Shown: positions 2,695 through 22,571 of the stretch, piece after piece | Numbering within the stretch: position 1 is the first letter of the stretch | Layout of the letters: every line of letters begins with the position of its first letter | Virus record (IMG/VR): IMGVR_UViG_3300021165_002245 | Span: 1 to 22,571 of that record | Source of the DNA: a virus | DNA length: 22,571 nt | Direction: 5' to 3' (one strand) | Program-made: the position numbers and the translations under genes | The notes under the pieces: generated by a model | Told to the model about the DNA's origin: nothing | The model's database searches: none | Seen by the model: the letters and a program-made list of their open reading frames with translations, nothing else

Positions 2695-2697
2695 TTT

Positions 2698-3336: not shown

Positions 3337-3349
3337 TTTTTTGCCCAAA

Positions 3350-3371: not shown

Positions 3372-3374
3372 AAA

Positions 3375-3399
3375 GTTCTAATTTCCATTATTTTAGAAC
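3375..3399 (+). promoter_or_regulatory. Second hairpin, directly upstream of the start codon at 3406
   Basis: GTTCTAA (3375-3381) pairs with TTAGAAC (3393-3399) around an 11-base loop. The stem ends 6 bases before the ATG, so if formed in the mRNA it would occupy the ribosome-binding region. It may be a translational control element or an operator; a weak terminator is also possible. Confidence 0.35.
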
Positions 3400-3405
3400 A
3401 AATCT

Positions 3406-3657: not shown

Positions 3658-3660
3658 ATA
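3652..3660 (+). promoter_or_regulatory. T4-type late promoter for gp25-gp6
   Basis: CTATAAATA (3652-3660) matches the T4-like late promoter box TATAAATA exactly and lies 24 bases before the gp25 ATG at 3685. In T4 such boxes are read by the phage late sigma factor gp55 with the sliding clamp; cyanophages use a closely similar motif. Confidence 0.75.
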
Positions 3661-3684
3661 CAAATACATAAAATTATCTCATAA

Positions 3685-4092: not shown

Positions 4093-5955
4093 ATGCCTTT
4101 TACAAAGTTTACAAATCTAGATTTTGATCAGATTAAAACCTCAATCAAAGATTATCTTCGTGCAAATTCAACTTTCACGGACTTTGATTTTGAAGGATCT
4201 AATTTTTCTGTCTTAATTGACACATTAGCATATAATACTTATATTACAGCATTTAACTCAAATATGATTGTGAACGAATCCTTTTTGGATTCGGCAACTT
4301 TAAGAGAAAATGTTGTTTCTTTAGCGAGAAATGTTGGTTATGTTCCTAGATCTAAAACTTGTGCGAAAGCTGTTGTATCATTTTCAATTCAGACAGCAAA
4401 TCAGTCTGGTCAACTGACCTTAAAAGCAGGTCTTGTTTGTGTTGGTGCTGTCGATAATACAACATATACATTCTCAGTTCCAGAAGATGTCACAGTTAAT
4501 ATTAATGGTGGTGTTGCATCTTTTAGTAATTTAGAAATCTATCAAGGTGTATATCTCACAAAGTCTTTTTCTGTAGATAATTCATATAATCAAAGATTCA
4601 TACTAGACAACGCAGATATTGATACAGCAACTATTGTTGTAAAAGTCGGAACCCGTGAGTATCAAAAAGTTGATAATATTTTAAAAGTAAATAAAGATTC
4701 TGAAATTTATTTACTCCAAGAAGTTCAAGATGAAAAATATGAAATTTTATTTGGAGATGGAATTATTGGCAAAAAACTGACCAATGGAGAATCTATTTCG
4801 ATCAGTTATTTGACAACTCAAGGTAAAGATGGTAATGGTCCATCTTTATTTTCATATTCTGGAACGACTGTTGATAGTAATGGACTTTTTGTAAATCCAT
4901 CTAGTTCTGTTTCCGTCACAACAGTAACCCGTGCTGCTGGTGGTGGAGATATTGAAACAATTGAATCAATCAAGTATTTTGCACCAAGACTCTATTCTTC
5001 ACAGTATCGTGCCGTGACTGCAAGAGACTACGAAGCGATTATTCAATTAATATATCCAAATACAGAATCTGTTTCTGTTGTAGGTGGAGAAGAACTGGAT
5101 CCACCCCAATTTGGAAAAGTTTTAATCAGCATCAAACCTAAAAATTCAACTTCAATATCTGACTTTGTAAAAACTCAAATCTTAAATGATCTAAAAAAAT
5201 ATGCAATTTCGGGAATCAATCAAGAAATAATTGATCTAAAACTTTTATATGTTGAAACTGAAAGTGATGTTTACTATGATTCTTCAAAAGTTACTAATGT
5301 CACTGAACTAAAGAGTAAGGTTAGTTCTTCAATCAATACTTACTCCAAATCTATCGATCTGAATAAATTTGGTGGAAGATTTAGATATAGTAAACTTCTT
5401 CAAATTATTGATAATGTTGATACTAGTATTACATCAAATATTACTAGAGTCAGAATGAGAAGAAATATGAATTGTATTTTAAATGATTTTTCACAATATG
5501 AAATATGTTTTGGAAATCAATTTCATAAAATTTTAGGTGGATATAATATTAAGAGCACAGGATTTAGATTAGCAGATGATCCAGAAACAGTTTATTTTAC
5601 TGATGTTGCATCCGAAGATAGTGATATTGGAATATTGTCTATTGTTAAACCAACCTTGGATCCTAATACATTTGAAATTGTTAAAAAATCAATTGGAACA
5701 GTTAATTATGCAAAGGGTGAAATAATTGTCAGCACAATAAAGATTGTTTCTACTGAATTGGATGATGGTGTTATTGAAATACAAGCATATCCAGAATCGA
5801 ATGATGTCATAGGTTTGCAGGACTTGTATTTGATTTATGATACCACAAAAAGCACTATAAATATGGTTAAAGATACTATATCTTCTGGAGAGCAGATTTC
5901 GGGAGTTAACTTCCCAGTAAGGTCTAGTTATTCAAACGGAAAATTAACGAGGTAG
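4093..5955 (+). CDS. 6: Baseplate wedge protein gp6
   Basis: The protein has 620 residues, against 660 in T4 gp6. The N-terminus carries the gp6/baseplate-J pattern: the block from about 1 to 60 with S-N-F-S-V-L-I-D-T-L-A-Y-N-T-Y (36-50), then R-E-N-V-V-S-L-A-R-N-V-G-Y-V-P-R-S (71-87). Further in are F-G-D-G-I-I-G-K-K-L (220-229) and T-A-R-D-Y-E-A-I-I near 310, both typical of the family. In T4, gp6 dimers form the ring that holds the wedges together. An AGG-containing Shine-Dalgarno-like sequence lies upstream of the ATG. The C-terminal coding region contains the late promoter for the next gene. The middle (about 330-480) is less conserved to my eye. Confidence 0.93.
   Translation: MPFTKFTNLDFDQIKTSIKDYLRANSTFTDFDFEGSNFSVLIDTLAYNTYITAFNSNMIVNESFLDSATLRENVVSLARNVGYVPRSKTCAKAVVSFSIQTANQSGQLTLKAGLVCVGAVDNTTYTFSVPEDVTVNINGGVASFSNLEIYQGVYLTKSFSVDNSYNQRFILDNADIDTATIVVKVGTREYQKVDNILKVNKDSEIYLLQEVQDEKYEILFGDGIIGKKLTNGESISISYLTTQGKDGNGPSLFSYSGTTVDSNGLFVNPSSSVSVTTVTRAAGGGDIETIESIKYFAPRLYSSQYRAVTARDYEAIIQLIYPNTESVSVVGGEELDPPQFGKVLISIKPKNSTSISDFVKTQILNDLKKYAISGINQEIIDLKLLYVETESDVYYDSSKVTNVTELKSKVSSSINTYSKSIDLNKFGGRFRYSKLLQIIDNVDTSITSNITRVRMRRNMNCILNDFSQYEICFGNQFHKILGGYNIKSTGFRLADDPETVYFTDVASEDSDIGILSIVKPTLDPNTFEIVKKSIGTVNYAKGEIIVSTIKIVSTELDDGVIEIQAYPESNDVIGLQDLYLIYDTTKSTINMVKDTISSGEQISGVNFPVRSSYSNGKLTR
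5855..5863 (+). promoter_or_regulatory. T4-type late promoter inside the end of gp6
   Basis: CTATAAATA (5855-5863) is an exact late-promoter box within the gp6 coding sequence, 102 bases before the ATG of the giant gene at 5966. It would allow that gene to be transcribed separately. Chance occurrence in AT-rich DNA is possible. Confidence 0.55.
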
Positions 5956-5965: not shown

Positions 5966-8900
5966 ATGATCACAACTGGTTTTGACGCTAGAGTCAAGGT
6001 ACAACAAATAATTGAGAATCAGTTACCAGAATTTTTGCTGTCAGAATCACCAAAGTCTGCAGAATTTTTAAAGCAATATTATATTTCACAGGAATATCAA
6101 GGTGGTCCCATTGATATTGCAGAAAATTTAGATCAATATTTAAGTTTAGATAATTTAACACCAGAAGTAATCTCAGGTGTCACCTCGACTACAAGTGGCG
6201 TCTCCACAACGGCAACAACAATTTTAGTTGATTCGACGAAAGGATTTCCTAAAACATATGGTTTATTTAAAATTGATGATGAAATTGTCACTTATACTGG
6301 TATAACAACAAATACGTTCACTGGATGTATTCGTGGATTTAGCGGTATAACTTCATACAGAAATCAGATTAATCCAGAAGAACTTGTTTTTTCAACTTCT
6401 TCCGCCAGTTCTCATAATAATGGATCTAGAGTATACAACTTAAGTTCTTTATTTTTAAAAGAGTTTTACAAAAAACTTAAATATCTTCTTGCTCCTGGAT
6501 TTGAAGATGTTGAGTTTGTTCAAAATTTAGATGTTAATAATTTTGTTAAGCAGATTCGTAATTTTTATGAAGGGAAAGGAACAGACGACTCATTCAGAAT
6601 TTTATTTAATGTTTTATATGGTGTTACTCCAAAAATTATTAATCTTGAAGACTTCTTATTCAAATCTTCCGATGCCGAATTTATAAGAAGAGAAGTATTA
6701 GTTACTGAAAGAATTGAAGGCAACCCAAACAAACTTGTTGGGCAGGTAATTAGAACTGCAGATGATAGTGCAGCTGGTCCAGTTTCAGAAGTTGAGATTA
6801 TTACTAGGGGAAATAAAACTTTTTATAAACTACAATTGTTCTCTGGATTTAGTGAGAAAAGCCTAATTGAAGGAACTTTTGAAATTACACCTAAAACTAA
6901 AGTAACAGATACTGTTTCAATAGGGTCTTCAGTTATTACAGTTGATAGTACAATTGGATTTTCGGAATCAGGAACTTTGATTTCAGGATCTAATACAAAT
7001 ATCAAATACACAAACAAAAGTGTTAACCAATTTTTTGGATGTTCTGGCATAACAAATGCAATCGCAATATCTGACAATATTAGGTCTGATAAGATTGTTT
7101 ATGGATATGAAGATGGTGATACATCTAAAATTGTTAAATTAAGAATAACTGGTATTCTTTCTGATATTGATAGTAAAGATAAATTTACTCTATTATTAGA
7201 CAAAGATCAATTGTCTGTAAAAAATCTTGGAGAAAAAATATTTAACAATAACAAAAATTATAAAGAATTTTTCTTTAATACTTGGATTTATAATACTAGA
7301 TCAAGATATGAAATTAAGTCTTTTTCAAATAACCAAGTTACTTTATACGAAAATGCAGACAAATCAAGTTTGAAAATTGGTGATAATGTAGATATTTTAA
7401 ACTCTAATTCTGAAAATATTGTTGTATCAGATGCTCTAGTTTCAGATATTAATTCAAATTTAGTTGTCCTTAATAAAAACATTACTAATATAAATCCCAA
7501 TACAAAATTAAGTATAAGAAGAAAATATAATTATGCAACAACAAGTTTACCGTCAAATATAGAACTAACTTCGTCTAAAATTTTATCTAATATTCAAAAT
7601 ACCTATAATGAAAATGATGAATACGCTTACATAGCTTCAAACTCTTTACCAGATTATTCAATAACTAAAAAAATATTTGCATCAACAATAAACATTACTC
7701 CATCCTCAATTTTAAGTGACATTTATAGAGGTTACAATCCATTAACAAATTTATATTCAATTTTAACATTTGATGATGATGTTTCTTTTATAACTGGAGA
7801 TGCTGTTGTTTATACAGGAACAAACACTGAAATTTTAGGATTAAAATTTGGAACAACTTATTATGTTGAAGTTTTAAAAATTGGAACAAGAACTAATCAA
7901 ATAAAATTATATAACTCTAGGTCCTTTATTGCTACACAAAACTCTGTTGAGTTTAGTCAAAATGGAGATACTGCTACACACACATTCACACTATTACAAC
8001 ACTATAATAAAACTATTTTTTCAAAAAAATCTTTATCTAAAATTCCCCTGATTCCTAACATAGAATCTGGCACTGATCAACCAACAGAAGTTGGACCAAT
8101 TGGAACAATGATCAATGGTGTTGAGATTATTAATTATAAAAGTAATGATAAAATTTACTATGGTCCGTTAGAGAAAATTAAAGTATACAATGGTGGTACA
8201 GATTATGATGTTATCAATCCACCATTGATAACAGCGTCAAATACTGGCATTGGAACAACAGCACTAGTTCAAGCAGTTGTAAGAGGATCCGTAAAAGAAG
8301 TATTGGTAGACCCTCAAGATTTCAGTGTAAATAGAGTGCTGTCAGTAACTATTACCGGTGGTAATGGTTTTGGGGCCAAATTACAACCAGTTCTCACTAA
8401 GGTTTATAGAGAAATTGACTTTAACGCAACTCAAGTAGGTGTAGCTGCAACTGGTGGCATTGATGTCTCTGAAGAAACAATTACTTTCTTTAAAAGGCAT
8501 AACTTAATAGATGGTGAAAAAATAGTTTATAATACAAATGGCAATCAACCATTAGGAATTGGATCTTTCAAAGGATCTAATACGGACCAAGGAGATTATT
8601 TAATAAGTGGTGCAATATATTATCCAAAAATTATTAATCCAAGATCAGTATATCTTTACAAAACAGAGGTTGATTATCTTTCTGGAATAAACACGGTTGG
8701 GTTTACAACAATAAACACAGGTGGAACTCACAAATTTAGATTATATCAGTCATCTGATGTTGTATCCGAAATTAAAGTTGTTGATCCAGGTAGTGGATAT
8801 GAAAATAGAAAATTAAGAGTTTTACCATCTGGAATTTCAACGTCTTCTAGCATTGTCACTTTTGATGGACATGGATTTAAAAATGGAGACCTAGTTCATT

Positions 8901-11900
8901 ATAATTATGAAACAAATGGAATATCTGGGTTATCCACAACAAATCAGTATTATGTTTTGAAAGTTAATGATTCTCAATTTAAATTATCTGATGCTGGTTC
9001 TGTAACAGTTGGTGCAGCAACAACTAATTTCACCAAACAAAATTTTGTAAACTTTAAATCAACCGGAGTTGGATATCAAATATTTTACTATCCTGAAATT
9101 AGATTAAACATCAACGCAGAAATATTAGGTGTTGGTAACACCATAACAGCGACTCCATTAATTAGGGGTGAAATAATTGATGCGTATTTGTATAATAATG
9201 GCACTGACTATGGATCTAAAATTTTAAATTTCCACAAAAAACCATTTTTAAATATTAAAACTGGCACTGGCGCTCAGTTAAAAGCAATTATTAAAGATGG
9301 AAAAATTATAAATGTCGAGGTTCAAAATGGAGGTAAATTTTATAATGCAGCACCAGATTTGATTATATCGGGTGATGGTATTGCCGCCAAATTGAGAGCT
9401 GTAGTAGAAAATGGAAGAATTACTGACGTCATTATTATCAATCAAGGAACAAATTACACTAGTACAAAAACTTCTATCATAGTACGTTCACCTGGTCGTA
9501 ATTGCGTATTAGATTCCTCAGTTAGAAGTTTAACTGTTAATAACTTATCTCGTTTTTCAGATGAAATTTTAGTCGAATATGGTGATAACTTGTCGTATGG
9601 AATAGTAGGATATTCTACAGATAGGGAAGGTAAATCATTCTTAGATCCGGTAGAAGTTGGACAACACTCAAAAGTTATAGGATGGGCATATGATGGAAAT
9701 CCAATATACGGACCATTTGCGTTTTCTGACCCACAAAATGTAAACTCTAGTGTTATTTCATTAAAAACTGGATATGTTGCATCATTAAATAATTCATATA
9801 ATAGACCTATTCATGATAATTTTCCACTAGGATTTTTTGTGGAAGATTATAAATTTAATGGTTCTGGAGATTTAGATATTCATAATGGTAGATATTCCAA
9901 AACACCAGAATTCCCAAATGGGATTTATGCATATTTTGTTGGAGTTTCCACAGACAGCACAACCTCAAAGTTAATTCCACAATTTCCATATTTTATAGGA
10001 AATACTTATAGATCTAATGTAATAAAAAATAATGTTGATCAGAATTTTAACTTCAATGGTTCAAAACTTATTAGAAATACATTTCCATATCGAGTAAATC
10101 AAGAGTATTCTAAAAATGATTTTATTGTAGAGTCTAGTAAAGAAATAAATCAGGTTACAATTGTTGAATCTATATCAAAGGGATCAGTAGATTCATTCTC
10201 AATTGTTAATCCTGGAGAGGATTATGAAGTTGGTAATGCATTGATATTTGAAAATGAAGAAACTGGTGGTGGAGGAGCTATAGTTGAAGTTTCTGAATTA
10301 GATGGTAAAAATATATCAAATATTCAAACAACATATGATACTTTTGAAAATTCTGTAGTTACCTGGGAATCTCAAGATGCAATAAGAGTTCATACTGGAA
10401 GATATCATACATTAGCAAATCAAGATCTAATTCAAATATCTGGAGTTTCAACTTTTATTGATGGTTTGACTGATTCACATATTATTGGCGTTACTTCAGA
10501 ATCTACATCTTTAGTAGATCATATTCCCCCCAATGTTGGGGTCATTACAGATATTTACGTATCTTCTATAGGTCCATTAGTTGGATCTGGAACAACTATT
10601 GGTATTGGAACAGAAATTGCATCAATTTTGAATATATTTGATAATGAAAATATTATTAGAATTGAAAGAAGTTCTGTTGGAACAGCACATTCAATTTCTA
10701 GTATTGTCAATTATTATTCAGATTCTTTTTCTATTCCATTAAAATCTGAATATTTTAACTCTTCCAGCAATTATAAGATATTCTTTAATCCAGTTCAATC
10801 CGTTGGTGTTGGAATTAACACCGGTGTTGAGACATTAATTAACTATTATATTGGGAAAAGTCCTAAAACTATATCTATCCAGACACAAAGTATTTACATT
10901 CCAAATCATCAATTCAAAACTAACCAAAGAGTTTTATTAACAAAACCAAGTTCTGGAAACAGACTTTCTGTTTCAAATACTTCTGGTGGGACAACTTTCG
11001 ATTTGCCAGAAACAAGTAATTCTCAATATGTTTATGTCATTAATAAATCAAAAGATTTTATTGGTATTGTAACTCAAGTTGGATTAACTACAACATCTCA
11101 AGGTTTATTCTTTAATACAAATGGATCAGATGATTATCGTTATAAAATAGAATCTATCCCATCACAAATAACTGCTACTTCAAGAAGAATCAAATCTAAG
11201 GTTTCAATTTCAACAGTTCACGGACTGCAAAATGGAGATATTATTGATCTAACATTGAATCCGAAACTATCAGTTGGTATTGGCAACTCATCATCTGTAA
11301 AAATTAAATTTGATGATGTAAATAAAAAGATGTTAGTTAATCCTGTAGGATTTACTTCATATACAATTGATACATCAAATAACCAAATTTATATTGAAAA
11401 TCATGGATATAAAACTGGTCAAAAGGTTTTTTATAGATCATCTGATGTTATTGCGAGTGGTCTAACAACAGGTGGATATTATATCTTTAGAGTTGATGAT
11501 AATAATATCAAATTGTCTGAGAACTATTTTGACTCTGTTTCAAATCCTCCAACAACAGTTAGTATTGCAAGCACCGGTGGTTCTGGACATGAAATAAGTT
11601 TATTAAATCCTCAAATTTTAGTAACCAAAGATAATAATTTAGTTTTTAATATTTCAGATTCTTCTCTGGAAAATTATAAATTTAAAATTTACTACGACCA
11701 ATCACTTTCAAATGAATTTGTTTCTGTTGGATCTACAACAACATTTTCTGTTGAACGTAGTGGTATTATAGGAATTTCTCCAACAGCTTCAGTGACTATT
11801 AGATATAATAAACTTTTACCAACAAAATTATACTATTCTTTGGAGAAAAATGGAGAATCAGTAATCCCAGATAGTACAGTAAACAATTATTCTGAAATTT

Positions 11901-14900
11901 TATATAGAGATAGTTTATATAATGGCAAATATAAGGTTTTTGGAGTTGGATCTACTGACTTCTCAATAACTTTGAATGACATTCCTGAAAAATTATCTTA
12001 CACACCATCAGATTTATCATATTTAAAATATACAACAACTTCTTCATCTGCATCTGGACCTATTGGCAAATTAAGTATTGTAAGTGGAGGATCTAACTAT
12101 ACTAAATTACCAAGAGTTATAGGTATTGCAACTGGAACTGCAAATAGTTTAGGATCAAATGCTATTATTAGATCTAAAACTAATACAATAGGAAAACTTA
12201 ACGATTTTAGGATAATAAATGAGGGATTTGATTATTCTGCAGATAAGACTTTAAGTCCACAAACAGATGTTCCCAAATATATTGAAATTGAAAGTTCTGA
12301 AAAAATAACAAAGGTAGATGTTCTCAGCGGCGGCAAAAATTATACTTCAGAACCTTCTTTAATTGTTGTTAATGAATATACTAATAAAAAGGTTGATAGT
12401 GGTATTTTAAAAGCCAATTTTAAAGGAAATACTATTATTTCTGTTGATGTTATTGAAGAACCCAAAGGCTTATCAAATGTTGATCATAGAATATATTCAA
12501 TTAATAATAGCAATGGCGTTCAAGTGGAAAGAGTGCTGTCATATTCAAATGGAGTTGTTAGATGTGAATTAAGCACTCCCCCAATTGATGGATTTATAAT
12601 TCCCCCATTCCAAGAAAATGATTTAATATTTGTTGAGGGAATTCAAAAGCAAAGTTTTACTGATGCATTGGGAAATATAACATCCCCAGGAACGGGATTT
12701 AATTCTGCAGATAATGGATATAATTTCTTTACAGTTGTTAATTACATCAATTCAAATCCTGCAATTTTAGATTATTATATTGGAGAATATACCGAAAACG
12801 CAGGTACTCCAGTAACAATTCCAACTTCATTCACTTCTATTGTCAAATCTCAAAATTATCCATCTTTTAAAATATCTAAGACACCTAGTCTGTTTTACCT
12901 AAATGAAAAATTAACTGTAAATGGAGTATTAAGTGATTTGTCTGTTGTTACATCGGACAAAAACTTTATAAAAGTAACTGGTGATACTTCCCTATCGCCA
13001 AATCATGTAATTAAAGGTGTAGAATCTGGAAATTTTGCAACAGTTAATAATACTATTTCTTATGATAGTAAATTTATTATTAACTATTCTAATAAAAAAT
13101 CTTTTGGATGGGACAATCAAAGCGGTCAACTAAACTATGACTTACAAGTTTTGGCAAATAATGATTATTATCAAAATCTTTCATATACTATAAAGAGTCC
13201 CATAGAATTTGAAGATTTAAGGGATTCTGTAAATAAATTAGTTCATCCATCAGGAATGAAAAATTTTGCCGATACTGTACTACAGTCAAAGGCAACGGTT
13301 TCTATTGGGGTAACGCAATCACTTAATCCTATTTTAGATTTTATTTCTGAAAAAAGAGTAGATACGATCAATAATTTTGATTTAGCTTTGGATTACAATC
13401 CAACATCATCTTCTTCAGATAATATTATCCTAAAAACTAAAAGATTAGCAGATTACATTGAGTGTAGAACAAATAGAGTTTTACAAATAGATGATATTAG
13501 TAATAAATTCTCTAGTGCAGAATTTAATAAGTTGACTTTTACAGAAACTGTAGAATATCCAGTTACAGATTTTTATTCTAAGTTCCTAGTTCAAGTTTCT
13601 GATGAGCAAAAACAAAGCACTCAATTAAGTGAAATTGTAATTTTAAATAATTACAATAATACATATACTCTGAATAAAATAGATTTATTCACTGATGAAA
13701 AAATTGGTGATTTTTCAGGATCTTTTGCAGACACTGGAGATGTAATTCTCAGATTTGATCCTGTAGATCCCAACACAACTAATTACAATCTAAAAGTTTA
13801 CAGGCATTCGTTCAGTCCAAATCCTCTGAATATAGGAATTGGATATACTGACATTGGATTTATCCGTCTTTCATCCAAAACAGAAAATGTTGGTCCAGCG
13901 TCTGGAACTGGAATATTGGGAGTTAGCACTTCAGTTTTCCAATCATTAATATATCAATATAATACAGTATATGCTTTTGCTCATGTTTTAGATACTCAAA
14001 CAAATGAGCAAAATTATTTTGAAGTTGCAGCATACCATGATGGGCAAAATTCTTATATTTCTGAATATTATTTTGACACTAAAAACTTTGCAAGTGGTAT
14101 ATCTGGTGGATTTATCGGAACTTTTGGGGTTAACGTAAGTAATGGGATTTTAAATCTAACATTTAAAAATGAAACTAGTAATAATGACATTAGAGTCAAA
14201 GTTAAAACTGTAGGAATAGGATCAACTTCTATAGGAATTGGAACATATCGTTACTTAGTAAGTGGTCAACCTGAGGGTTCGGAAAGAACTGCAAAATTAG
14301 AATCTACTTATGTAACTACTTCTGGAATTACTACAAACATTCTAAAATATGATAGTCTTATTGGATCAACAATTAAGTCAATAATTAAAGTTGGCATTGG
14401 ATCAACTGTTTCAATTCATAATCTTTATATTGTTTCAGATCAAACACGTGTTAACATTAGTCAAGCACCATTCTTAAGTGCAAAAAATAATAATGGAATT
14501 GGCACATTTTCTGCTACGGTAAATGGTACAGATGTAATAGTCAAGTTTCATCCAGATTCTGAATACTCATCAAGTAATATTGTTATCCAATCTTATAATG
14601 AGTTTATATATTCAGATGTTGATGAGTTTAATGTTCCTGATAATTATACATATGGAACTTCAATTGAGGCAATAACCAATGCTTTTTACGGATCCATTAA
14701 TGAATTTGGAAAAGACAAGTTAGATTTTGATCTAAATTATAATAGAATTCCAATTTTTGAAAAAACTTTTAATCCATCAGACTCTTCAAAACTTAATCAA
14801 TCTACTGGAGTCTTTTCAATTACAGACCATTTCTTTGAAACTGGAGAGGAATTAATATACACACCATCATCAACATTACTTGGTGTAGCAGCTTCTTCTG

Positions 14901-17900
14901 TTGGTATTGGAACTACCATTGTCAGTGGTCAATCATTTAATGGTGATGTAATAATTGGATTATCTACAATTACTGGAATTGGAGTTTCAACTGGTTTAAC
15001 TATTGGACATATAGTTTTAGGAAAATTTGTTCCATCATCTACTACCTTAACTGGTATTCAAACAAGTTATACTTATTTTATTGGAGATGTTGTTTCGACT
15101 GGATCTTCAGTTATAACTGGCATTGCCAACACATCAATATTGAGAGTTGGATCTGGAATTTACTCTGGAAGTAATACTTCTTTAGGATCTCCATTAGGAA
15201 CAATTTATTCGATTGGAATTAATTCTATTACAGCATCTCAATCTATAACCGCAGGTTCTGCAAGAACTTATTATTCAACAGATTCTAATTGGTCGGTAAC
15301 CCTATCTAATGTTTCTACTGGAACGACATTTAGAGAAACTTATGCAACGGGTATCAGTACTGATATATGCCCAACAAAAGTTTATGCAATTAGGTTATCT
15401 AAAGATACATTTAAGATAACAGGAACTGCTGGTGGAAGTGGTGTAGGATTTACTTTTACAAACATTGGATCAGGTAATCTTCATAAACTTGAAATGAAGA
15501 AAAAACTTGAAAAATCTTTAATTACAATTGATGGTGTAACCCAGTATCCGTTGATGTTTACTCCATTAAATTATACTCTGCAAAATAATAATCCCACAAT
15601 TGGAGTTGGAGTTACATTTTTATCTCTTTCAGGTATTTCATCTATTAAGCCACGAGATATTCTAAACATAGGGACCGAATTTTTAAATGTAGTAAACGTT
15701 GGTTTAGCGACCACCGCATTAGGTCCTATTACAGGAATAGGGTCGATACCAGTTGTTGAAGTTAAACGAGGTTTTGTTGGATCTTCAGCAACAACTTTAA
15801 CAAATGGTTCTATAGTTAGATTATATAGAGGTGCTTACAACATTGTAGGTAACAAAATTTACTTTGCTGAAGCGCCAGATGGTAGAGGTAATAATGATAG
15901 ATTGAATTCAAGTAATTTATCTTTACCCAAATCTAGTTTTAGTGGTAGAATTTATTTACGTAGAGATTATGATCTTAATAAAATATACGATGACATATCA
16001 GATGGTTTTACAGGTTTAGGTAGAACCTTTACAGTGTATAAAGAGGGTGAAAATACAACTGGTTTAGAAGCAGGTAGTAATCTTGTCTTCATAAATGATG
16101 TCTTCCAGACACCAGATACTTCAAATAACACTGGAAATAACTATACTTTTGTAGAAACATCTTCCGCAGGAATTTCCAGTGTAAGTTTTACTGGAGTTAC
16201 TCGTCCAAGTTCAACTGATATTATTATTGTTGACTCGGATATAAATCAAAACCAATTGCCAAGAGGCGGAGTAGTTATTTCTGTTGCATCTACTGGAGGA
16301 CTTGGTTATGCTCCACTTGTAGGGGCAGCAGTTACTGCGATAGTAAGTGGTGGTGTAATAACTGGAATAACCACTGGTCTAGAGGGAGGATCTTTTGGAT
16401 CTGGGTATTATGGAAATGTATCAATTGGAGTTACAGATCCCCTCCACGTTGGATCTGCAGCAACAATCACAGCATCTGTCGGTGCTGGGGGAACTTTATC
16501 ATTTAATATAGTTAGCGGTGGAACAGGATATATAAGTCCAGTTTTCCAAATTAATTCTCCTTCATATGAAAACCTACCTGTGGTAGGTGTTTCTAGACTT
16601 GGTGTTGGAAATACCACTGTTGTTGGAGTTGGATTGTCTATAACGTTTGAGGTTGGTCCTAACTCCACTGTGGGTATTGGTTCAACTTACTTTAGAATTT
16701 CTTCTTATGAATTTAAGAAGAGAGGATATGCTTATCAAATTGGCGATGTATTTAAACCAGTTGGATTGGTTACTGCTAGTGGATTATCCAATCCATTGGA
16801 AGAAATTAAATTTACAGTCACTGAAGTTTTTAATGATTCATTTGCATCATGGCAATTAGGAGAATTTGATTACATTGATAGTATTAAAAACTTACAAAAT
16901 GGTGTAAGAACTAGATTCCCTCTTTATAAGAATAGTCAACTTTTGAGTTTCCAAAGAAATCTTGGAAGTGTTGAATCACTTCTCATAGATTTCAAATCTA
17001 TCTTGTTAATATATGTGAATGGTGTTATGCAGGAACCAAATGTTTCTTATGACTTTACTGGAGGAACAACTTTTAGTTTTAAAGAAGCTCCAAAAGCAGA
17101 AGATAAAGTTGATATATTTTTCTATAGAGGAACTCGTAATATAGACAGTGTAGAAGTTAATGTTAATGAAACTGTAAAAGTTGGTGACACTCTACAAATC
17201 AATAAAAATGATCAGATACCTGCAACAGTTGGTCAAGAACAAAGGTTGGTTTCTGAAATATTATCTGCAGACCTTGTGGAAACTGGAATTTATCTTGGAG
17301 ATGGTATTGATGCAACAAATTATAAACCAGTGGACTGGTTAAGACAAAAGAGAGACTTGATTATCGACGAAAATCCAGAATATAAAATTAGAGATTCTAT
17401 TGAGGGGATGATATTCCCAACATCAAAAGTTATAAAGAACCTTGGTCAAACAGATACTGAAATTTTCTTAGATGATGCTCAATTTTTCAATTACGAAGAA
17501 AATGAATCTTCAATTGAAATTTCGAAATTCTCTGGTCTTTTAGTTAATTCTGGGAATGATCCAGTATCTGCAGCGTTTACTGCTAATGTTTCAACTGCAG
17601 GGACAATATCTTCAATAACTATTACTGATGGTGGATCTGGATATACACCAAACTCCACAATAACTTTAAAAATATCAGAACCAATTGGTGGAATTGGCAC
17701 TGTTTTCAAATCTGAAGTTAAAAATAGACCAGGTATTTTGGGCATAGGTTCCGACATTATTGTTGGAATTGATACATCTTTAGTTAAAATTGGTCAATCC
17801 TTAAAAGCGATACCTAACATTTTAGATACAACATTTACAGTAAGTGGAATTTCTTCTGGAAGTGGCGGATCAGTTCTACTTAATAAATCTGCATTTAATG

Positions 17901-18613
17901 CAACATCTCTAACAAAAGCATTTAATTTTGGTAGATATCAAAATCAATCTAGAGCGACAGCAACAGCTAGTGTTTCTTCCGCAGGAATTGTAACACTAAC
18001 TTCGATTGCACTATCTGGAGCTGGATATACTTCAACAACTCCACCGCTTGTAATATCACCGCTTCCAGATCTTTCTTACGAGTTAATAACTAACATTCAA
18101 TTTATTCAAGGATTTAGTGGCATAATAACAGGCATATCAACAAATACAGGTATAGGGGGAAATCCATTAGCATTGACTTTCTATGTTGCATACGATTCTT
18201 CGTCAGCAATCAATGACTTGATCGTGGGATATCCAATATATGTTTCTGAAACAACTGTTGGTCATGGTGCAACTTCTATAGATGGTGGAGATACTGCCAC
18301 TGTTGGCATTGGATCAACATTTTTAGACAACATTTACTACATACACTCAATATCAAGAGATAACTTGGTAGGTATCATAACTACGAATATACTTTCAACT
18401 ACAAATGTAAGTGGAGTTCATACTATGCCAAATTATTTCTCTGGAAGATTTTCTTGGGGAAGACTCAGTGGTTTTACTAGATCTAATAATCCAATATCAA
18501 TAGCTGTTACTGGATTTACAGTGAGTCCCGGTCTTTCAACTTTTGCAACGATGCAAAGACGTGAATATGGTCTTAGAGATAGTGGTGCAATACGAAAAGA
18601 CCTGGGTGCATAA
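5966..18613 (+). CDS. Giant baseplate protein in the gp7 position (4215 residues)
   Basis: One uninterrupted frame of 4215 residues lies between gp6 and gp8, where T4 has gp7 (1032 residues). The N-terminus (about 1-265, with F-Y-E-G-K-G-T-D-D-S-F-R-I-L-F near 200-215) resembles the wedge-initiator part of cyanophage gp7-type proteins. A YHYH-type domain follows at about 1205-1325 (IGWAYDGNPIYGPF at 1238-1251). The rest is mostly beta-rich, Ser/Thr/Gly/Asn-rich sequence with many V-G-I-G-S/T turns and recurring modules: G-G-x-x-Y (13 copies, about 743-4018), H-G-x-x-x-G-D (about 845-2955) and N-G-V-x-Q-like (about 3188, 3376, 3682). The C-terminus (Q-R-R-E-Y-G-L-R-D-S-G near the end) is typical of the family. 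It probably forms the wedge plus an extended arm or fibre. A GAGGT Shine-Dalgarno lies 12 bases upstream. No frameshift is seen. Assignment to gp7 rests on position and the N-terminus. Confidence 0.82.
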   Translation: MITTGFDARVKVQQIIENQLPEFLLSESPKSAEFLKQYYISQEYQGGPIDIAENLDQYLSLDNLTPEVISGVTSTTSGVSTTATTILVDSTKGFPKTYGLFKIDDEIVTYTGITTNTFTGCIRGFSGITSYRNQINPEELVFSTSSASSHNNGSRVYNLSSLFLKEFYKKLKYLLAPGFEDVEFVQNLDVNNFVKQIRNFYEGKGTDDSFRILFNVLYGVTPKIINLEDFLFKSSDAEFIRREVLVTERIEGNPNKLVGQVIRTADDSAAGPVSEVEIITRGNKTFYKLQLFSGFSEKSLIEGTFEITPKTKVTDTVSIGSSVITVDSTIGFSESGTLISGSNTNIKYTNKSVNQFFGCSGITNAIAISDNIRSDKIVYGYEDGDTSKIVKLRITGILSDIDSKDKFTLLLDKDQLSVKNLGEKIFNNNKNYKEFFFNTWIYNTRSRYEIKSFSNNQVTLYENADKSSLKIGDNVDILNSNSENIVVSDALVSDINSNLVVLNKNITNINPNTKLSIRRKYNYATTSLPSNIELTSSKILSNIQNTYNENDEYAYIASNSLPDYSITKKIFASTINITPSSILSDIYRGYNPLTNLYSILTFDDDVSFITGDAVVYTGTNTEILGLKFGTTYYVEVLKIGTRTNQIKLYNSRSFIATQNSVEFSQNGDTATHTFTLLQHYNKTIFSKKSLSKIPLIPNIESGTDQPTEVGPIGTMINGVEIINYKSNDKIYYGPLEKIKVYNGGTDYDVINPPLITASNTGIGTTALVQAVVRGSVKEVLVDPQDFSVNRVLSVTITGGNGFGAKLQPVLTKVYREIDFNATQVGVAATGGIDVSEETITFFKRHNLIDGEKIVYNTNGNQPLGIGSFKGSNTDQGDYLISGAIYYPKIINPRSVYLYKTEVDYLSGINTVGFTTINTGGTHKFRLYQSSDVVSEIKVVDPGSGYENRKLRVLPSGISTSSSIVTFDGHGFKNGDLVHYNYETNGISGLSTTNQYYVLKVNDSQFKLSDAGSVTVGAATTNFTKQNFVNFKSTGVGYQIFYYPEIRLNINAEILGVGNTITATPLIRGEIIDAYLYNNGTDYGSKILNFHKKPFLNIKTGTGAQLKAIIKDGKIINVEVQNGGKFYNAAPDLIISGDGIAAKLRAVVENGRITDVIIINQGTNYTSTKTSIIVRSPGRNCVLDSSVRSLTVNNLSRFSDEILVEYGDNLSYGIVGYSTDREGKSFLDPVEVGQHSKVIGWAYDGNPIYGPFAFSDPQNVNSSVISLKTGYVASLNNSYNRPIHDNFPLGFFVEDYKFNGSGDLDIHNGRYSKTPEFPNGIYAYFVGVSTDSTTSKLIPQFPYFIGNTYRSNVIKNNVDQNFNFNGSKLIRNTFPYRVNQEYSKNDFIVESSKEINQVTIVESISKGSVDSFSIVNPGEDYEVGNALIFENEETGGGGAIVEVSELDGKNISNIQTTYDTFENSVVTWESQDAIRVHTGRYHTLANQDLIQISGVSTFIDGLTDSHIIGVTSESTSLVDHIPPNVGVITDIYVSSIGPLVGSGTTIGIGTEIASILNIFDNENIIRIERSSVGTAHSISSIVNYYSDSFSIPLKSEYFNSSSNYKIFFNPVQSVGVGINTGVETLINYYIGKSPKTISIQTQSIYIPNHQFKTNQRVLLTKPSSGNRLSVSNTSGGTTFDLPETSNSQYVYVINKSKDFIGIVTQVGLTTTSQGLFFNTNGSDDYRYKIESIPSQITATSRRIKSKVSISTVHGLQNGDIIDLTLNPKLSVGIGNSSSVKIKFDDVNKKMLVNPVGFTSYTIDTSNNQIYIENHGYKTGQKVFYRSSDVIASGLTTGGYYIFRVDDNNIKLSENYFDSVSNPPTTVSIASTGGSGHEISLLNPQILVTKDNNLVFNISDSSLENYKFKIYYDQSLSNEFVSVGSTTTFSVERSGIIGISPTASVTIRYNKLLPTKLYYSLEKNGESVIPDSTVNNYSEILYRDSLYNGKYKVFGVGSTDFSITLNDIPEKLSYTPSDLSYLKYTTTSSSASGPIGKLSIVSGGSNYTKLPRVIGIATGTANSLGSNAIIRSKTNTIGKLNDFRIINEGFDYSADKTLSPQTDVPKYIEIESSEKITKVDVLSGGKNYTSEPSLIVVNEYTNKKVDSGILKANFKGNTIISVDVIEEPKGLSNVDHRIYSINNSNGVQVERVLSYSNGVVRCELSTPPIDGFIIPPFQENDLIFVEGIQKQSFTDALGNITSPGTGFNSADNGYNFFTVVNYINSNPAILDYYIGEYTENAGTPVTIPTSFTSIVKSQNYPSFKISKTPSLFYLNEKLTVNGVLSDLSVVTSDKNFIKVTGDTSLSPNHVIKGVESGNFATVNNTISYDSKFIINYSNKKSFGWDNQSGQLNYDLQVLANNDYYQNLSYTIKSPIEFEDLRDSVNKLVHPSGMKNFADTVLQSKATVSIGVTQSLNPILDFISEKRVDTINNFDLALDYNPTSSSSDNIILKTKRLADYIECRTNRVLQIDDISNKFSSAEFNKLTFTETVEYPVTDFYSKFLVQVSDEQKQSTQLSEIVILNNYNNTYTLNKIDLFTDEKIGDFSGSFADTGDVILRFDPVDPNTTNYNLKVYRHSFSPNPLNIGIGYTDIGFIRLSSKTENVGPASGTGILGVSTSVFQSLIYQYNTVYAFAHVLDTQTNEQNYFEVAAYHDGQNSYISEYYFDTKNFASGISGGFIGTFGVNVSNGILNLTFKNETSNNDIRVKVKTVGIGSTSIGIGTYRYLVSGQPEGSERTAKLESTYVTTSGITTNILKYDSLIGSTIKSIIKVGIGSTVSIHNLYIVSDQTRVNISQAPFLSAKNNNGIGTFSATVNGTDVIVKFHPDSEYSSSNIVIQSYNEFIYSDVDEFNVPDNYTYGTSIEAITNAFYGSINEFGKDKLDFDLNYNRIPIFEKTFNPSDSSKLNQSTGVFSITDHFFETGEELIYTPSSTLLGVAASSVGIGTTIVSGQSFNGDVIIGLSTITGIGVSTGLTIGHIVLGKFVPSSTTLTGIQTSYTYFIGDVVSTGSSVITGIANTSILRVGSGIYSGSNTSLGSPLGTIYSIGINSITASQSITAGSARTYYSTDSNWSVTLSNVSTGTTFRETYATGISTDICPTKVYAIRLSKDTFKITGTAGGSGVGFTFTNIGSGNLHKLEMKKKLEKSLITIDGVTQYPLMFTPLNYTLQNNNPTIGVGVTFLSLSGISSIKPRDILNIGTEFLNVVNVGLATTALGPITGIGSIPVVEVKRGFVGSSATTLTNGSIVRLYRGAYNIVGNKIYFAEAPDGRGNNDRLNSSNLSLPKSSFSGRIYLRRDYDLNKIYDDISDGFTGLGRTFTVYKEGENTTGLEAGSNLVFINDVFQTPDTSNNTGNNYTFVETSSAGISSVSFTGVTRPSSTDIIIVDSDINQNQLPRGGVVISVASTGGLGYAPLVGAAVTAIVSGGVITGITTGLEGGSFGSGYYGNVSIGVTDPLHVGSAATITASVGAGGTLSFNIVSGGTGYISPVFQINSPSYENLPVVGVSRLGVGNTTVVGVGLSITFEVGPNSTVGIGSTYFRISSYEFKKRGYAYQIGDVFKPVGLVTASGLSNPLEEIKFTVTEVFNDSFASWQLGEFDYIDSIKNLQNGVRTRFPLYKNSQLLSFQRNLGSVESLLIDFKSILLIYVNGVMQEPNVSYDFTGGTTFSFKEAPKAEDKVDIFFYRGTRNIDSVEVNVNETVKVGDTLQINKNDQIPATVGQEQRLVSEILSADLVETGIYLGDGIDATNYKPVDWLRQKRDLIIDENPEYKIRDSIEGMIFPTSKVIKNLGQTDTEIFLDDAQFFNYEENESSIEISKFSGLLVNSGNDPVSAAFTANVSTAGTISSITITDGGSGYTPNSTITLKISEPIGGIGTVFKSEVKNRPGILGIGSDIIVGIDTSLVKIGQSLKAIPNILDTTFTVSGISSGSGGSVLLNKSAFNATSLTKAFNFGRYQNQSRATATASVSSAGIVTLTSIALSGAGYTSTTPPLVISPLPDLSYELITNIQFIQGFSGIITGISTNTGIGGNPLALTFYVAYDSSSAINDLIVGYPIYVSETTVGHGATSIDGGDTATVGIGSTFLDNIYYIHSISRDNLVGIITTNILSTTNVSGVHTMPNYFSGRFSWGRLSGFTRSNNPISIAVTGFTVSPGLSTFATMQRREYGLRDSGAIRKDLGA
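8162..9500 (+). repeat. Cluster of G-G-x-x-Y beta modules in the giant protein
   Basis: Within the giant gene, motifs of type hydrophobic-x-hydrophobic-x-x-G-G/S/T-x-x-Y occur at residues about 743, 942, 1079, 1122, 1161 (and further at 1417, 2041, 2087, 2122, 3444, 3518, 3889, 4018). Copies in the densest stretch, 1079-1161, are spaced 39-43 residues apart, each followed by a strand and a G-T-G-A-x-x-x-A-x-V type strand. Repeats are at protein level; the DNA is diverged. Confidence 0.7.
8485..8995 (+). repeat. H-G-x-x-x-G-D beta modules
   Basis: Two copies of a second module (residues about 845-925 and 969-1020) share His-(Gly/Asn)-Phe/Leu, then Gly-Asp/Glu-x-Val/Ile, Tyr, then Y-Y-V or Y-Y-P, and a closing F-K-L or V-Y-L strand. 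Further copies with His at 1648, 1752, 1813 and 2955 lie later in the same gene. The module is about 80 residues in its complete form. Confidence 0.65.
9578..9958 (+). other. YHYH-type domain within the giant protein
   Basis: Residues about 1205-1330 contain IGWAYDGNPIYGPF (1238-1251) and, later, N-G-R-Y-S-K-T-P-E-F-P-N-G-I-Y-A-Y-F, which is the cyanophage version of the YHYH domain signature. The canonical YHYH tetrapeptide itself is replaced by I-Y-A-Y. The role of this domain is unknown. Confidence 0.75.
17150..17182 (+). repeat. 33-bp exact repeat, copy 1 (in the giant gene)
   Basis: These 33 bases are identical to 20558-20590 in the DUF4815-type gene. They encode VEVNVNETVKV (residues 3729-3739) in the same frame as in the second copy. 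Flanking bases differ on both sides. Confidence 0.9.
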
Positions 18614-18615
18614 GT

Positions 18616-18623
18616 TATAAATA
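18616..18623 (+). promoter_or_regulatory. T4-type late promoter for gp8
   Basis: TATAAATA (18616-18623) lies in the 28-base gap between the giant gene and gp8, 18 bases before the ATG at 18642. The base before it is T rather than C. It matches the box before gp25. Confidence 0.72.
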
Positions 18624-18641
18624 TAGAAAAAAGCTAATAAT

Positions 18642-20198
18642 ATGGCTGCAATTGTAACCGATCAATTTAGGATATTAAACGCGAGTAATTTTGTAGACTC
18701 TGTTAGTGATTCTAATAATTCTTATTATGTATTTTTAAGTTTACCAAACCCATCATCTGTTGGATTTGGTAGATCTGATAATTGGGATAATAATATCCCA
18801 GCACCTATCGATAATTTGAATTATTTGTCTCATGTAAAAGACACTATGATTTTTGGTAAAAAAATCACTAGTAACGATGTGAGAAGATTAATAAAAAGAG
18901 TTGATTGGAAGCAAGGTACAATCTATGAAATGTATCGCCATGATTATAGCGTATCAAATCCATCTCCCCAAACAAATTCTACTAGATTATATGATGCAAA
19001 CTATTATGTTTTAAATAGTGATTATAGAGTTTACATTTGTGTCGATAATGGAGCATCTATAACAAATACTCTAGGAAATTTTTCTCAAGATGAACCAACT
19101 TTTGTAGATTTAGAACCATCTAGAGCTGGAGAAAGCGGTGACGGATATATCTGGAAATACTTATTTACAGTTTCTCCTAGCGACATTATCAAATTTGATT
19201 CTATTGAATATATTCCAGTTCCAAATAATTGGACGACAACAACAAATTCTCAAATTCAATCCATTAGAGAGAATGGAGACTCTTTAATTAATGAAAATCA
19301 AATCAAAAAGATATATGTTCAAAATCAAGGAGCAGGGTATAATACAACAGATGCGGAGTTAGATGTATTGGGGGATGGTGAAGGGGGGAAAGTCGTTGTT
19401 AATGTAGTTGGTGGTAAGATTGAAAGTGCTACTGTTTCTTCTGGCGGAAAAAATTATTCATATGGAAGAGTAGATTTATCATCTATTAATAGTGGAGCAA
19501 CTCAATTTGCAGAATTAGTTCCAATTATACCACCATCAAGAGGACATGGATATGACTTATATACGGAATTAGGAACTGATAAAGTTTTAATTTATTCTCG
19601 TTTTGATGACTCAACTAAAGATTTTCCTTTAGATACAAGATTTGCTCAAATTGGAATAATTAAAAATCCAACCAGAATAGGATCTGCAAGTTCTATTTTT
19701 TCAGAGAGTCAATTTTCTAATTTAGGGGCATTAAAGTTAACTGGAGTTTCAAATCCATCAGATGCTACTCCGGGTATTAGAGTTTACCAAACTATTACCG
19801 GTGTTGGAACTGCAACTGGATACATTGCATCTTTTGATACGGAAACTAGAGTTTTAAAATATTTCCAAGATAGATCGTTATATTATAACGTAATATCTAA
19901 TGATCAAAAAGATTCCAGAAACATAATTAGTGAGGCAACAAAAATTGATTTTAGTATTAGTGGTGGAACGATAACTTCCTCTAATAATTTTAGTGGTGCT
20001 ATTGATTCTACCTTTACTGGAATTACAACATCAGTAACTTCAACAAAAAGAGTTAATTTGGCAACAGAATTTACAAATGGGGTTGCAAATCCAGAGATAA
20101 ATAAAGGATCGGGGGAGATAATTTATCTTGATAATAGACCTCGTGTTTCTAGAAACCCCAGACAAAAAGAGGATATTAAAATCATACTGGAATTCTAA
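18642..20198 (+). CDS. 8: Baseplate wedge protein gp8, with extra module
   Basis: The protein has 518 residues, against 334 in T4 gp8. The N-terminal half (MAAIVTDQFRILNASNFVDS, then Y-Y-V-F-L-S-L near 28-34, V-D-W-K-Q-G-T-I-Y-E-M-Y-R-H-D-Y near 88-103, Y-V-L-N-S-D-Y-R-V-Y-I-C-V-D-N-G near 123-138, and D-G-Y-I-W-K-Y-L-F near 166-175) and the C-terminus (Y-L-D-N-R-P-R-V-S-R-N-P-R-Q-K-E-D-I-K-I-I-L-E-F) are the gp8 signature. In T4, gp8 dimers bind gp6, gp7 and gp10 in the wedge. Residues about 222-285 hold two G-G-x-x-Y-type motifs (G-A-G-Y at 230-233, G-G-K-N-Y at 268-272) like those of the giant neighbour; this insertion helps explain the greater length. It has its own late promoter and ends 2 bases before the next ATG. 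Confidence 0.92.
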   Translation: MAAIVTDQFRILNASNFVDSVSDSNNSYYVFLSLPNPSSVGFGRSDNWDNNIPAPIDNLNYLSHVKDTMIFGKKITSNDVRRLIKRVDWKQGTIYEMYRHDYSVSNPSPQTNSTRLYDANYYVLNSDYRVYICVDNGASITNTLGNFSQDEPTFVDLEPSRAGESGDGYIWKYLFTVSPSDIIKFDSIEYIPVPNNWTTTTNSQIQSIRENGDSLINENQIKKIYVQNQGAGYNTTDAELDVLGDGEGGKVVVNVVGGKIESATVSSGGKNYSYGRVDLSSINSGATQFAELVPIIPPSRGHGYDLYTELGTDKVLIYSRFDDSTKDFPLDTRFAQIGIIKNPTRIGSASSIFSESQFSNLGALKLTGVSNPSDATPGIRVYQTITGVGTATGYIASFDTETRVLKYFQDRSLYYNVISNDQKDSRNIISEATKIDFSISGGTITSSNNFSGAIDSTFTGITTSVTSTKRVNLATEFTNGVANPEINKGSGEIIYLDNRPRVSRNPRQKEDIKIILEF

Positions 20199-20200
20199 AA

Positions 20201-22571
20201 ATGTCACAAAAAACAAATCTTAACGTACTACCATATTTTGATGATTTTGATCCAAATAAAAACTTTTATCGTGTCCTCTTTAAACCAGGATTTCCAGTTC
20301 AATCTAGGGAGTTAACAACTCTACAATCAATACTACAAAACCAAATTCAATCATTTGGTAGCCATATTTTTAAAGATGGATCTGTAGTAGTTCCAGGAAA
20401 TGTTACATATAATTCAAAATATTATGCGGTTAAAATCAATCCCACTCACGTTGGATTAAGCGTTGGTTTATATTTAAATCAACTAGTAGGAAAAAGAATA
20501 CGAGGACAAAGTTCTCAATTATCGGCAATTGTTCAAAATGTATTAACAAATACAGAAGTAGAAGTTAATGTTAATGAAACTGTAAAAGTTTCTGAAACCG
20601 GTGATTACACTCTTTATGTAAAATACACCTCATCAGATTCAGATTTTGAAATCACCCAATTTAGAGATGGTGAAACTCTAATTTTAGAAGAATCAATAAC
20701 TTATGGAAATACAACTATAGCATCAGGTAATACTTTTGCAACGTTGATTAATTTAAATGCGTCTTTAATAGGTTCTTCAGTTTCAATTTCAAAAGGGGTT
20801 TACTTTATTAGAGGACATTTTGTCAATGTTCAAGATAACACTTTAATTTTAGATCAATATACAAATACTCCATCATACAGAGTTGGTCTCTTTGTTGATG
20901 AAACTCTAGTTGATGCTAAAGAAGATAATAGTTTATATGATAATGCTTCTGGGTTTTCAAATTATGCAGCCCCTGGTGCAGATAGATTAAAAATTAGCGC
21001 AACCCTTACTAAAAAAAGATTAACAGATACTGATGATAAAAACTTTGTTGAAATTTTAAGGGTTAAAGATGGAGTTGTAAAAAAAATACAAGATTCTAAC
21101 ACATATTCTCTGATAAAAGAATATTTTGCAAAACGTACATATGAAGAATCTGGAAATTATTCTGTTGATCCATTTAGCGTTGATATTTCAGATTCACTGA
21201 ATGATCGTGTAAACTCTGATGGAGTTTTTTATTCAACGCAAAAGACTGAACAAGGAAATAACCCATCGGAAAGTCTTTTAGCAGTAAAAGTCTCTCCAGG
21301 AAAAGCATACGTTAGAGGATTTGATGTTGAAAAATCTTCTACAACTATAATTGATCTAGAAAAATCAAGAGATACTGCAACTGTTTCAAGTTCTTCAATC
21401 CCATTTGAAATGGGAAATCTATTAAAAGTAAGTAATGTAAGTGGAACTCCAGCTATTGGGATCGATAATAATTTTTCAATATTACTGAATAGTAGAAGAA
21501 AAGATTCTACGATTGTTGGTGCAGGAGTTACAATTGGAACAGCAAGAGTTTATTCATTTGGAGTTAGTGACGCTCCATATGCAAATTCAGGAACTTCCTG
21601 GGATCTATATCTTTATGATATACAAACCTATACAACTTTAACTTTAAATCAAAGTTTATCATCAATACAGTGTCCAGAAACTTCATATATTAAAGGTTTA
21701 AATAGTGGAGCATCTGGATATGTTATAGGATCTCCTTTTGGATCAAAAATAAATATTCAACAAACTTCAGGATCTTTCAGTGTTGGAGAACCAATATCAA
21801 TTAATGGAAAGACTGAACATTCTAGAGCAGTTTCTGAAATAAAAATATATGGCGCTCAAGACATAAAATCAGTATATCAAGATAAAAATGTAGCAGGACT
21901 AACAACTTCATTTATTGCAGATACAGTTCTCCAAAGTAGAACTGCATTAAACTTTAGTTCTACAGATACATTATCAATTAGTGCAGGAGTCGCTACTTGT
22001 GCTGGAAAAAACTTTGTAGGTGTAAAAACTGATACGATTATTAGATATCAAAGAACCGGATTTACAACTGAAACTTATAACAGAGTTTCTTCAGTTTCTT
22101 CTGATGGTCTTACAATGACCTTGGTAGGGGTTGCTACAGTGGCTGGAATTTGCGATGGACAACTTCCAACATCTTCAGTATCTGCAACATTCTCTTTAGG
22201 TGTTCCTAGCATTCAAAATGAAGAAAGAGCGTTTTTATATGCAAAATTAAATTCAAAAAATATATCTGATGTAAATCTAGCATCTTCAGATCTTACTGTA
22301 AATAGACAGGTTACAAAATCAACAAGTAATGTTGGTAGTGTTTCGATTACACTATCAGATGTTGGGATTACAAGTGCATTTTTTGAACCATATGATTCTG
22401 AAAGATATTCAGTTTTCTATGAAGATGGCACTATAGACCAACTAACTGCAGATAAAGTAGGATTATCAGCAAATTCAACGACTTTAGATATAACTGGACT
22501 AAGAACTAGCCAATCAAACGTAAAGATCAATGTAACGGTTAGAAAAAATTCTATTAAAAATAAACAAAAAA
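20201..22571 (+). CDS. DUF4815-type virion structural protein (partial, 3' end missing)
   Basis: An ATG at 20201 opens a frame that runs off the window without a stop (790 full codons). The N-terminus (MSQKTNLNVLPYFDDFDPNK, then N-F-Y-R-V-L-F-K-P-G-F-P-V-Q-S-R-E-L-T-T-L-Q and F-G-S-H-I-F-K-D-G-S-V-V near 50-63) is the signature of the DUF4815 family, common after gp8 in T4-like cyanophages. The body continues with Y-F-A-K-R-T-Y-E-E-S-G-N-Y-S-V near 308-322 and V-S-P-G-K-A-Y-V-R-G-F-D-V-E-K near 363-378, also family-typical. It is probably a baseplate peripheral or fibre-attachment protein in the place of T4 gp9/gp10; this is inferred from position. It holds the second copy of the 33-bp repeat. 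It starts 2 bases after the gp8 stop, so it is cotranscribed. Confidence 0.87.
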   Translation, partial: MSQKTNLNVLPYFDDFDPNKNFYRVLFKPGFPVQSRELTTLQSILQNQIQSFGSHIFKDGSVVVPGNVTYNSKYYAVKINPTHVGLSVGLYLNQLVGKRIRGQSSQLSAIVQNVLTNTEVEVNVNETVKVSETGDYTLYVKYTSSDSDFEITQFRDGETLILEESITYGNTTIASGNTFATLINLNASLIGSSVSISKGVYFIRGHFVNVQDNTLILDQYTNTPSYRVGLFVDETLVDAKEDNSLYDNASGFSNYAAPGADRLKISATLTKKRLTDTDDKNFVEILRVKDGVVKKIQDSNTYSLIKEYFAKRTYEESGNYSVDPFSVDISDSLNDRVNSDGVFYSTQKTEQGNNPSESLLAVKVSPGKAYVRGFDVEKSSTTIIDLEKSRDTATVSSSSIPFEMGNLLKVSNVSGTPAIGIDNNFSILLNSRRKDSTIVGAGVTIGTARVYSFGVSDAPYANSGTSWDLYLYDIQTYTTLTLNQSLSSIQCPETSYIKGLNSGASGYVIGSPFGSKINIQQTSGSFSVGEPISINGKTEHSRAVSEIKIYGAQDIKSVYQDKNVAGLTTSFIADTVLQSRTALNFSSTDTLSISAGVATCAGKNFVGVKTDTIIRYQRTGFTTETYNRVSSVSSDGLTMTLVGVATVAGICDGQLPTSSVSATFSLGVPSIQNEERAFLYAKLNSKNISDVNLASSDLTVNRQVTKSTSNVGSVSITLSDVGITSAFFEPYDSERYSVFYEDGTIDQLTADKVGLSANSTTLDITGLRTSQSNVKINVTVRKNSIKNKQK
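20558..20590 (+). repeat. 33-bp exact repeat, copy 2 (in the DUF4815-type gene)
   Basis: Identical to 17150-17182 over 33 bases and in the same reading frame, giving VEVNVNETVKV at residues 120-130. The surrounding protein context is different (before a Y-T-L-Y-V-K-Y strand here). Confidence 0.9.

Follow-up and report, generated by a model that had tools for sequence, protein, structure and literature searches.

The 4215-residue protein in the gp7 slot of an uncultured cyanophage relative: a family member of ordinary size with a predicted gp7 core

What occupies the baseplate wedge when a single open reading frame of 12.6 kb lies where T4-like phages keep gene 7? The frame is found in IMG/VR record IMGVR_UViG_3300021165_002245, analysed here as the complete record of 22571 bp (the window), whose nearest sequenced relatives are cyanophages, S-SRM01 being the best. 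An earlier note, made from the sequence alone, had described one stop-free frame between gp6 and gp8 with consistent codon use and had read its product as a T4 wedge protein extended by more than 3000 residues of beta-rich modules. The coordinates and neighbours of the frame were found exactly as described there:

3685-4086, + strand: gp25-like baseplate wedge protein or sheath initiator (phrog_261, E 5e-50; PF04965 above its cut-off)
4093-5955, + strand: gp6-like baseplate wedge protein (phrog_219, E 5e-205; PF21379 above its cut-off)
5966-18613, + strand: giant gp7-type baseplate wedge protein, 4215 aa (single ORF; phrog_2885; same-sized relatives)
18642-20198, + strand: gp8-like baseplate wedge protein (phrog_438, E 3e-156; PF09215)
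20201-22570, + strand: VrlC-type structural protein (DUF4815), truncated by the record end (phrog_358, E 4e-213; PF16075; position as in relatives)

The giant frame starts with ATG and runs uninterrupted for 4215 codons (the end coordinate takes in the stop), with a purine-rich GAGGTAG ~10 nt upstream of the start. Given the local base composition (0.081 stops per codon), log10 P for an open frame of 4215 codons arising by chance is about -155. Codon use is indeed consistent: GC3 stays at 0.12-0.17 throughout the frame and equals that of gp6 (0.17) and gp8 (0.16). DNA repeats within the gene amounted to weak, chance-like matches, and the order gp25-gp6-giant ORF-gp8-VrlC is shared with the isolates. 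At the other end of the window, positions 1-1300 have a GC content of ~53%, compared with 31% elsewhere, and all their ORFs are short; patches of this region are matched in other viral contigs and in cyanophages, which marks it as phage DNA rather than a chimeric join. At 2698-3336, a 212-aa ORF matches phrog_3704 (named ferredoxin), and relatives carry at this place, just 5' of gp25, genes annotated PurM, ferredoxin or 2OG-Fe(II) oxygenase.

Is the giant a homologue of gp7? When window residues 1-580 were combined with 84 viral relatives into a profile, residues 182-307 aligned to positions 702-822 of the T4 gp7 family (hhalign, Prob 95.7, E 1e-8), in line with the earlier assignment of gp7 homology to the protein in the gp7 slot. 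A smaller earlier profile scored Prob 89, versus at most 0.3 for 20 column-shuffled controls and 0.2 for the reversed alignment, and with T4 gp7 as the query phrog_2885 was matched in that register too (E 1.3e-4). The two families are bridged by gp92 of Sinorhizobium phage phiM7, a 1006-aa protein encoded between gp6 and gp8 with VrlC after gp8, since it matches both: its residues 4-202 aligned with T4 gp7 638-827 (E 2e-7) and its residues 65-179 with window residues 164-282 (hhalign, Prob 98.5, E 3e-15). The N-terminal region divides as follows:

5966-6151, + strand: residues 1-62, N-terminal helices, a proposed part of the gp7 core bundle placed by position from the phiM7 gp92-T4 alignment
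6161-6439, + strand: residues 66-158, small beta domain between core helices, resembling phage tail protein domains (VIA-align)
6440-6643, + strand: residues 159-226, helices with an FY..KGT..S..ILF..LYG motif, core common to T4 gp7 (hhalign)
6677-7165, + strand: residues 238-400, fold resembling gp7 domain V (Foldseek and VIA-align)

An AlphaFold2 model of residues 1-580 (mean pLDDT 75) pointed the same way. Its best Foldseek match was T4 gp7 in the solved baseplate (5iv5_BJ, E 1.2e-3), and VIA-align placed model residues 238-400 on T4 gp7 763-844, which corresponds to Pfam Gp7_5th (766-861), domain V, with Z 8.9 and an rmsd of 2.6 over 81 residues, unrelated rows reaching Z 9-10. The agreement between the sequence and fold registers argues for gp7 homology, each fold score being modest by itself. 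The small beta domain (66-158) superposed on residues 478-559 of JBD30 baseplate chain 8rk3_b (Z 10.5, rmsd 1.7, 75 residues). Within residues 1-62 the model has helices at 5-19, 29-44 and 51-59, of low confidence (pLDDT ~42-60). The helix of the Gp7_helical bundle (T4 643-689) is covered by the T4-phiM7 alignment; its direct match to window residues 14-36, where the model is poor, was not significant (Prob 0.1). A search of the whole giant against PDB sequences returned no match. Thus, from profiles and predicted structure, residues ~160-400 are homologous, though remotely, to T4 gp7 ~700-845.

A pelagimyophage study came to the opposite view, that T4 gp7 is absent from pelagimyophages and cyanophages and that VrlC stands in its stead (PMC7029224). 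The giant could then be an unrelated structural or tail-fibre-like protein lodged in the slot, with VrlC in the role of gp7; the bulk of the giant is without a T4 counterpart, and its repeated units (below) are common to other phage structural PHROGs. We consider this unlikely given that residues 160-400 match T4 gp7 in both profile and fold with clean controls, that phiM7 has its bridging gp7 as well as VrlC beside gp8, and that VrlC matched neither T4 gp7 nor gp10.

How is the remainder of the protein related to gp7? A second element lies far downstream of the core:

13100-13288, + strand: residues 2379-2441, candidate second gp7 element, LN..Q....DYYQ.LSY.IKS...LVHPSG (hhalign)

This segment aligned with phiM7 gp92 928-989, near the C terminus of that protein (Prob 95.8, E 8e-9), and more weakly, through window residues 2407-2437, with T4 gp7 864-894 (Prob 52.6, E 1.4e-4); 30 shuffled controls reached at most Prob 9.4 and E 3e-3. 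Every aligned cyanophage gp7 has it, even those of Syn19 and P-SSM4. T4 gp7 has the shared core in its C-terminal third and the window protein at its N terminus, and no counterpart of T4 gp7 residues 1-635 or of domain VI was detected in the window by full-length profile comparison. In T4, the 864-894 element comes within a few tens of residues after domain V. Thus, on the simplest reading of these alignments, the T4 side of which is a weak match, the giant would be a gp7 core that has gained an insertion of ~2000 residues at that point and an extension of ~1770 at its end. The earlier picture of T4 gp7 extended by more than 3000 residues holds for the amount gained and fails as a simple extension, because the core is N-terminal, T4 1-635 went undetected and the second element follows ~2000 residues on. 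We tentatively propose a split gp7, in which the core would be assembled from residues 1-400 and 2379-2441, with a looped arm of ~2000 residues anchored at both ends and a second arm of ~1770 residues, so that covalent scaffold loops would replace the peripheral baseplate proteins of T4; we hold this arrangement to be somewhat less probable than its alternatives taken together.

Relatives vary chiefly through insertions at fixed places, foremost near residue 3470:

16367-16405, + strand: residues ~3468-3480, insertion hot spot (blastp breaks)
17684-17995, + strand: residues ~3907-4010, poorly conserved linker or insert before the conserved C-terminal 200 residues (blastp coverage drops to 8/29 sequences)

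Relatives are longer by ~100 to ~1150 residues at the hot spot; the window has no insert there and represents the short form. The inserts of P-SSM2, S-T4, Sf-CH5 and the relative L287 (~600 to ~1150 residues) match tail-fibre PHROGs, and a Pfam search of the inserts found a sub-threshold E1_FCCH alone. Residues 2985-3128 are also poorly conserved. Low-confidence linkers, along with the poorly conserved stretches 2985-3128 and 3907-4010, offer candidate cut sites, and the giant might accordingly be cleaved during assembly into several mature pieces, leaving no 4215-residue chain in the virion. T4 gp7, which is present in six copies and forms with gp8 the platform for gp6, is one chain (PMC3004832), and we regard such processing as improbable.

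What are the regions outside the core made of? Structure models cover residues 1-580 and 690-1480. The second of these (mean pLDDT 80) is nearly all strand, so that the beta-rich make-up expected by the earlier note is supported within the modelled parts. Two kinds of feature could be placed:

8153-17707, + strand: ten dispersed glycine-tyrosine beta units of ~38 aa (HMM from cyanophage units)
9638-9952, + strand: residues 1225-1329, C-terminal half of a YHYH domain (PF14240)

Each ~38-aa unit is a hydrophobic strand followed by NGGxxY; the units start at residues 730, 930, 1110, 1149, 1403, 2028, 2074, 2112, 3506 and 3876 (span 730-3914). Their HMM gave 10 matches in the window, 0 in T4 gp7 and 0 in 20 shuffles. 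A loose Gly-Tyr motif counted 17 times did not exceed the shuffle maximum of 21, whereas a stricter motif and the HMM did beat shuffles. A fold search with residues 690-1480 found no match to the whole model; small barrel domains within it (~813-928 and ~947-1043) show similarity (Z 6-8) to the barrels of E1 FCCH and endosialidase, a common arrangement. In relative L287 (L033, L034), ~230-250 residues are added before the YHYH segment, near window residue ~1015, another point of insertion within the arm.

The PF14240 match is strong (E 2e-24, 86.9 bits against a cut-off of 25) and, for YHYH domains of jumbo phages, a hydrolase role has been predicted (PMC7824862). By the same token the segment might be a tail-associated, metal-dependent hydrolase attacking the cell envelope. 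The match, however, is confined to positions 83-184 of the 193 in the model, its C-terminal half. Aligned with 14 sequences of cellular or MAG origin, the window and six isolate gp7s lacked the histidines of the EYHHH signature, the proposed metal site; a further His, that of LDxHNGR, gives way to Y in S-SRM01 and Syn19, by F in S-SCSM1 and by N in Syn1. Since EYHHH is missing and another His is variable, a hydrolase role is very unlikely for the giant gp7.

Is a protein of 4215 residues exceptional at this place? The profile of phrog_2885 ('baseplate wedge subunit', 4179 positions) scored 3615 bits to the giant, the best stretch being residues 3-2988, and tblastn with residues 1-2978 matched 465 phage records, of which 91 aligned with 80% or more of that query. 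The gp7 and gp8 starts, placed from match coordinates in 36 related metagenomic contigs, lie 3865-5577 codons apart (median 4156); the 4225 codons of the window exceed 61% of these spacings. All 17 contigs that were fetched have one stop-free frame of 3860-5573 codons. In isolates with a single annotated gene in the slot, the products measure 3274-7312 residues (Syn1 3274, S-8S55 3891, S-SRM01 3895, S-SCSM1 4120, S-SM2 4156, ACG-2014f 4225, S-CAM7 4314, MED4-213 4458, S-T4 4749, Sf-CH5 4878, P-SSM2 5195, S-SM1 6180, Syn19 6483, P-SSM4 7312). Because similarly huge homologues occur in nearly all relatives, 4215 residues is an ordinary size. The earlier note had placed the novelty in size and composition, adding that the protein would be ordinary if all homologues had about 4000 residues, and as to size the length comparison found just such homologues: 3860-5573 codons is usual among close relatives, with up to 7312 residues in isolates. 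The giant is thus typical of a family already known, and its size is normal for its lineage.

An artefact in which two or more genes were fused through misassembly or the loss of a stop, the failure that the earlier note had foreseen, can be set aside as scarcely credible: the gp7-slot gene of S-SKS1 (HQ633071, 8001-20385) is split over three frames, so that errors in this gene do occur, but the window frame is collinear over its full length in blastp with single long frames in 17/17 independent contigs and 13 isolates, and its GC3 is constant. In S-SKS1 the pieces overlap briefly (8001-10122, 10055-14858, 14845-18184, 18168-20385), and these breaks are probably sequencing errors in that record, as relatives hold intact copies. 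Syn1, S-SCSM1 and S-SM1 have additional structural genes (gp9-like, tail fibre, oxygenase) between the gp7-slot gene and gp8; the window has none. Two records assigned to 'Gammaproteobacteria' MAGs (L264 and L265) have ORFs (at least 2140 and at least 1447 codons) whose YHYH segment is of the gp7 type and shares 49% identity with that of the window, and are probably cyanophage contigs binned into bacterial MAGs.

What does the giant do in the baseplate? The S-SM1 protein T4-GC969, detected in virions by mass spectrometry (PMC3037559), is the product of the gp7-slot gene of that phage, and ORF122 of S-CREM2 (1937 aa), in the same slot, yielded 91 unique virion peptides (PMC10665884). Peptides from the same slot in both virions indicate that such proteins are virion components. 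We estimate at about 80% the probability that the giant is the gp7-type wedge scaffold of a T4-like cyanophage (Kyanoviridae), with its core and second element in the wedge and with beta-rich outer arms. By homology, the gp7 core in residues 1 to ~400, comprising helical bundle, trifurcation helices and domain V, would link the two gp6 chains within each wedge, and the second element at 2379-2441 would continue this core or fold back onto it. The ~2000 residues between core and second element and the ~1770 beyond may form the outer arms, which would stand in for the N-terminal part of T4 gp7 itself, and probably for gp10 and gp11 too, and may bear sites for host contact or fibre attachment. 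The outer arms most likely make up the baseplate periphery and, by analogy with Vibrio phage XM1, would be built from loop and C-terminal parts. We infer six copies per virion, and the arm geometry and binding function are likewise proposed on these comparisons.

Thus, the giant wedge protein known from cyanophage isolates is also encoded by this uncultured virus, and the question of size is settled. What is added is a map of where the gp7 core and second element show homology; it amends the simple-extension picture as well as the published absence: contrary to PMC7029224, there is evidence for a gp7 homologue in cyanophages, and its two conserved pieces are located. For structural work on the baseplate of these abundant marine phages, the map marks the predicted wedge-core residues and the site near ~3470 where fibre-like modules are swapped.

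How does the protein compare with known systems? T4 gp7 (1032 aa; phrog_964; Pfam Gp7_helical, Gp7_5th and Gp7_6th) likewise lies between gp6 and gp8, and its ~700-845 core corresponds to window residues ~160-400, whereas the window protein has ~3800 additional residues of different make-up. phiM7 gp92 shares the slot, the N-terminal core, a C-terminal YYQ element and the succession of gp8 and VrlC; ~750 residues separate its two elements, compared with ~2000 in the window, and it is without the C-terminal extension. YHYH proteins (PF14240) share the C-terminal half, with the motifs HS..IGWAYDGNPIYGP and GDLD.HNGR..TPE.P.G.YAYF, and differ in having the N-terminal half that bears the signature histidines. 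The closest counterparts are the cyanophage gp7-slot giants of phrog_2885, among them those of S-SRM01, ACG-2014f and P-SSM2, which resemble the window protein in slot, size, partial YHYH domain and conserved C-terminal 200 residues and are collinear with it at 36-46% identity across residues 1-2984. Window residues 3129-4213 are collinear with S-SRM01 as well, 2985-3128 and 3907-4010 being extra in the window; from these giants the window protein, which is without an insert at ~3470, differs in indels only. Finally, gp17 of Vibrio phage XM1 (242 aa), a minimal gp7 orthologue, forms a core bundle with two gp16 (gp6-type) chains while its loop and C terminus hold the tail spikes (PMC10457771). 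From that published description, the likeness to the window protein would be one of working mode, a core bundle in the wedge from which loop and tail hold the receptor-binding spikes.
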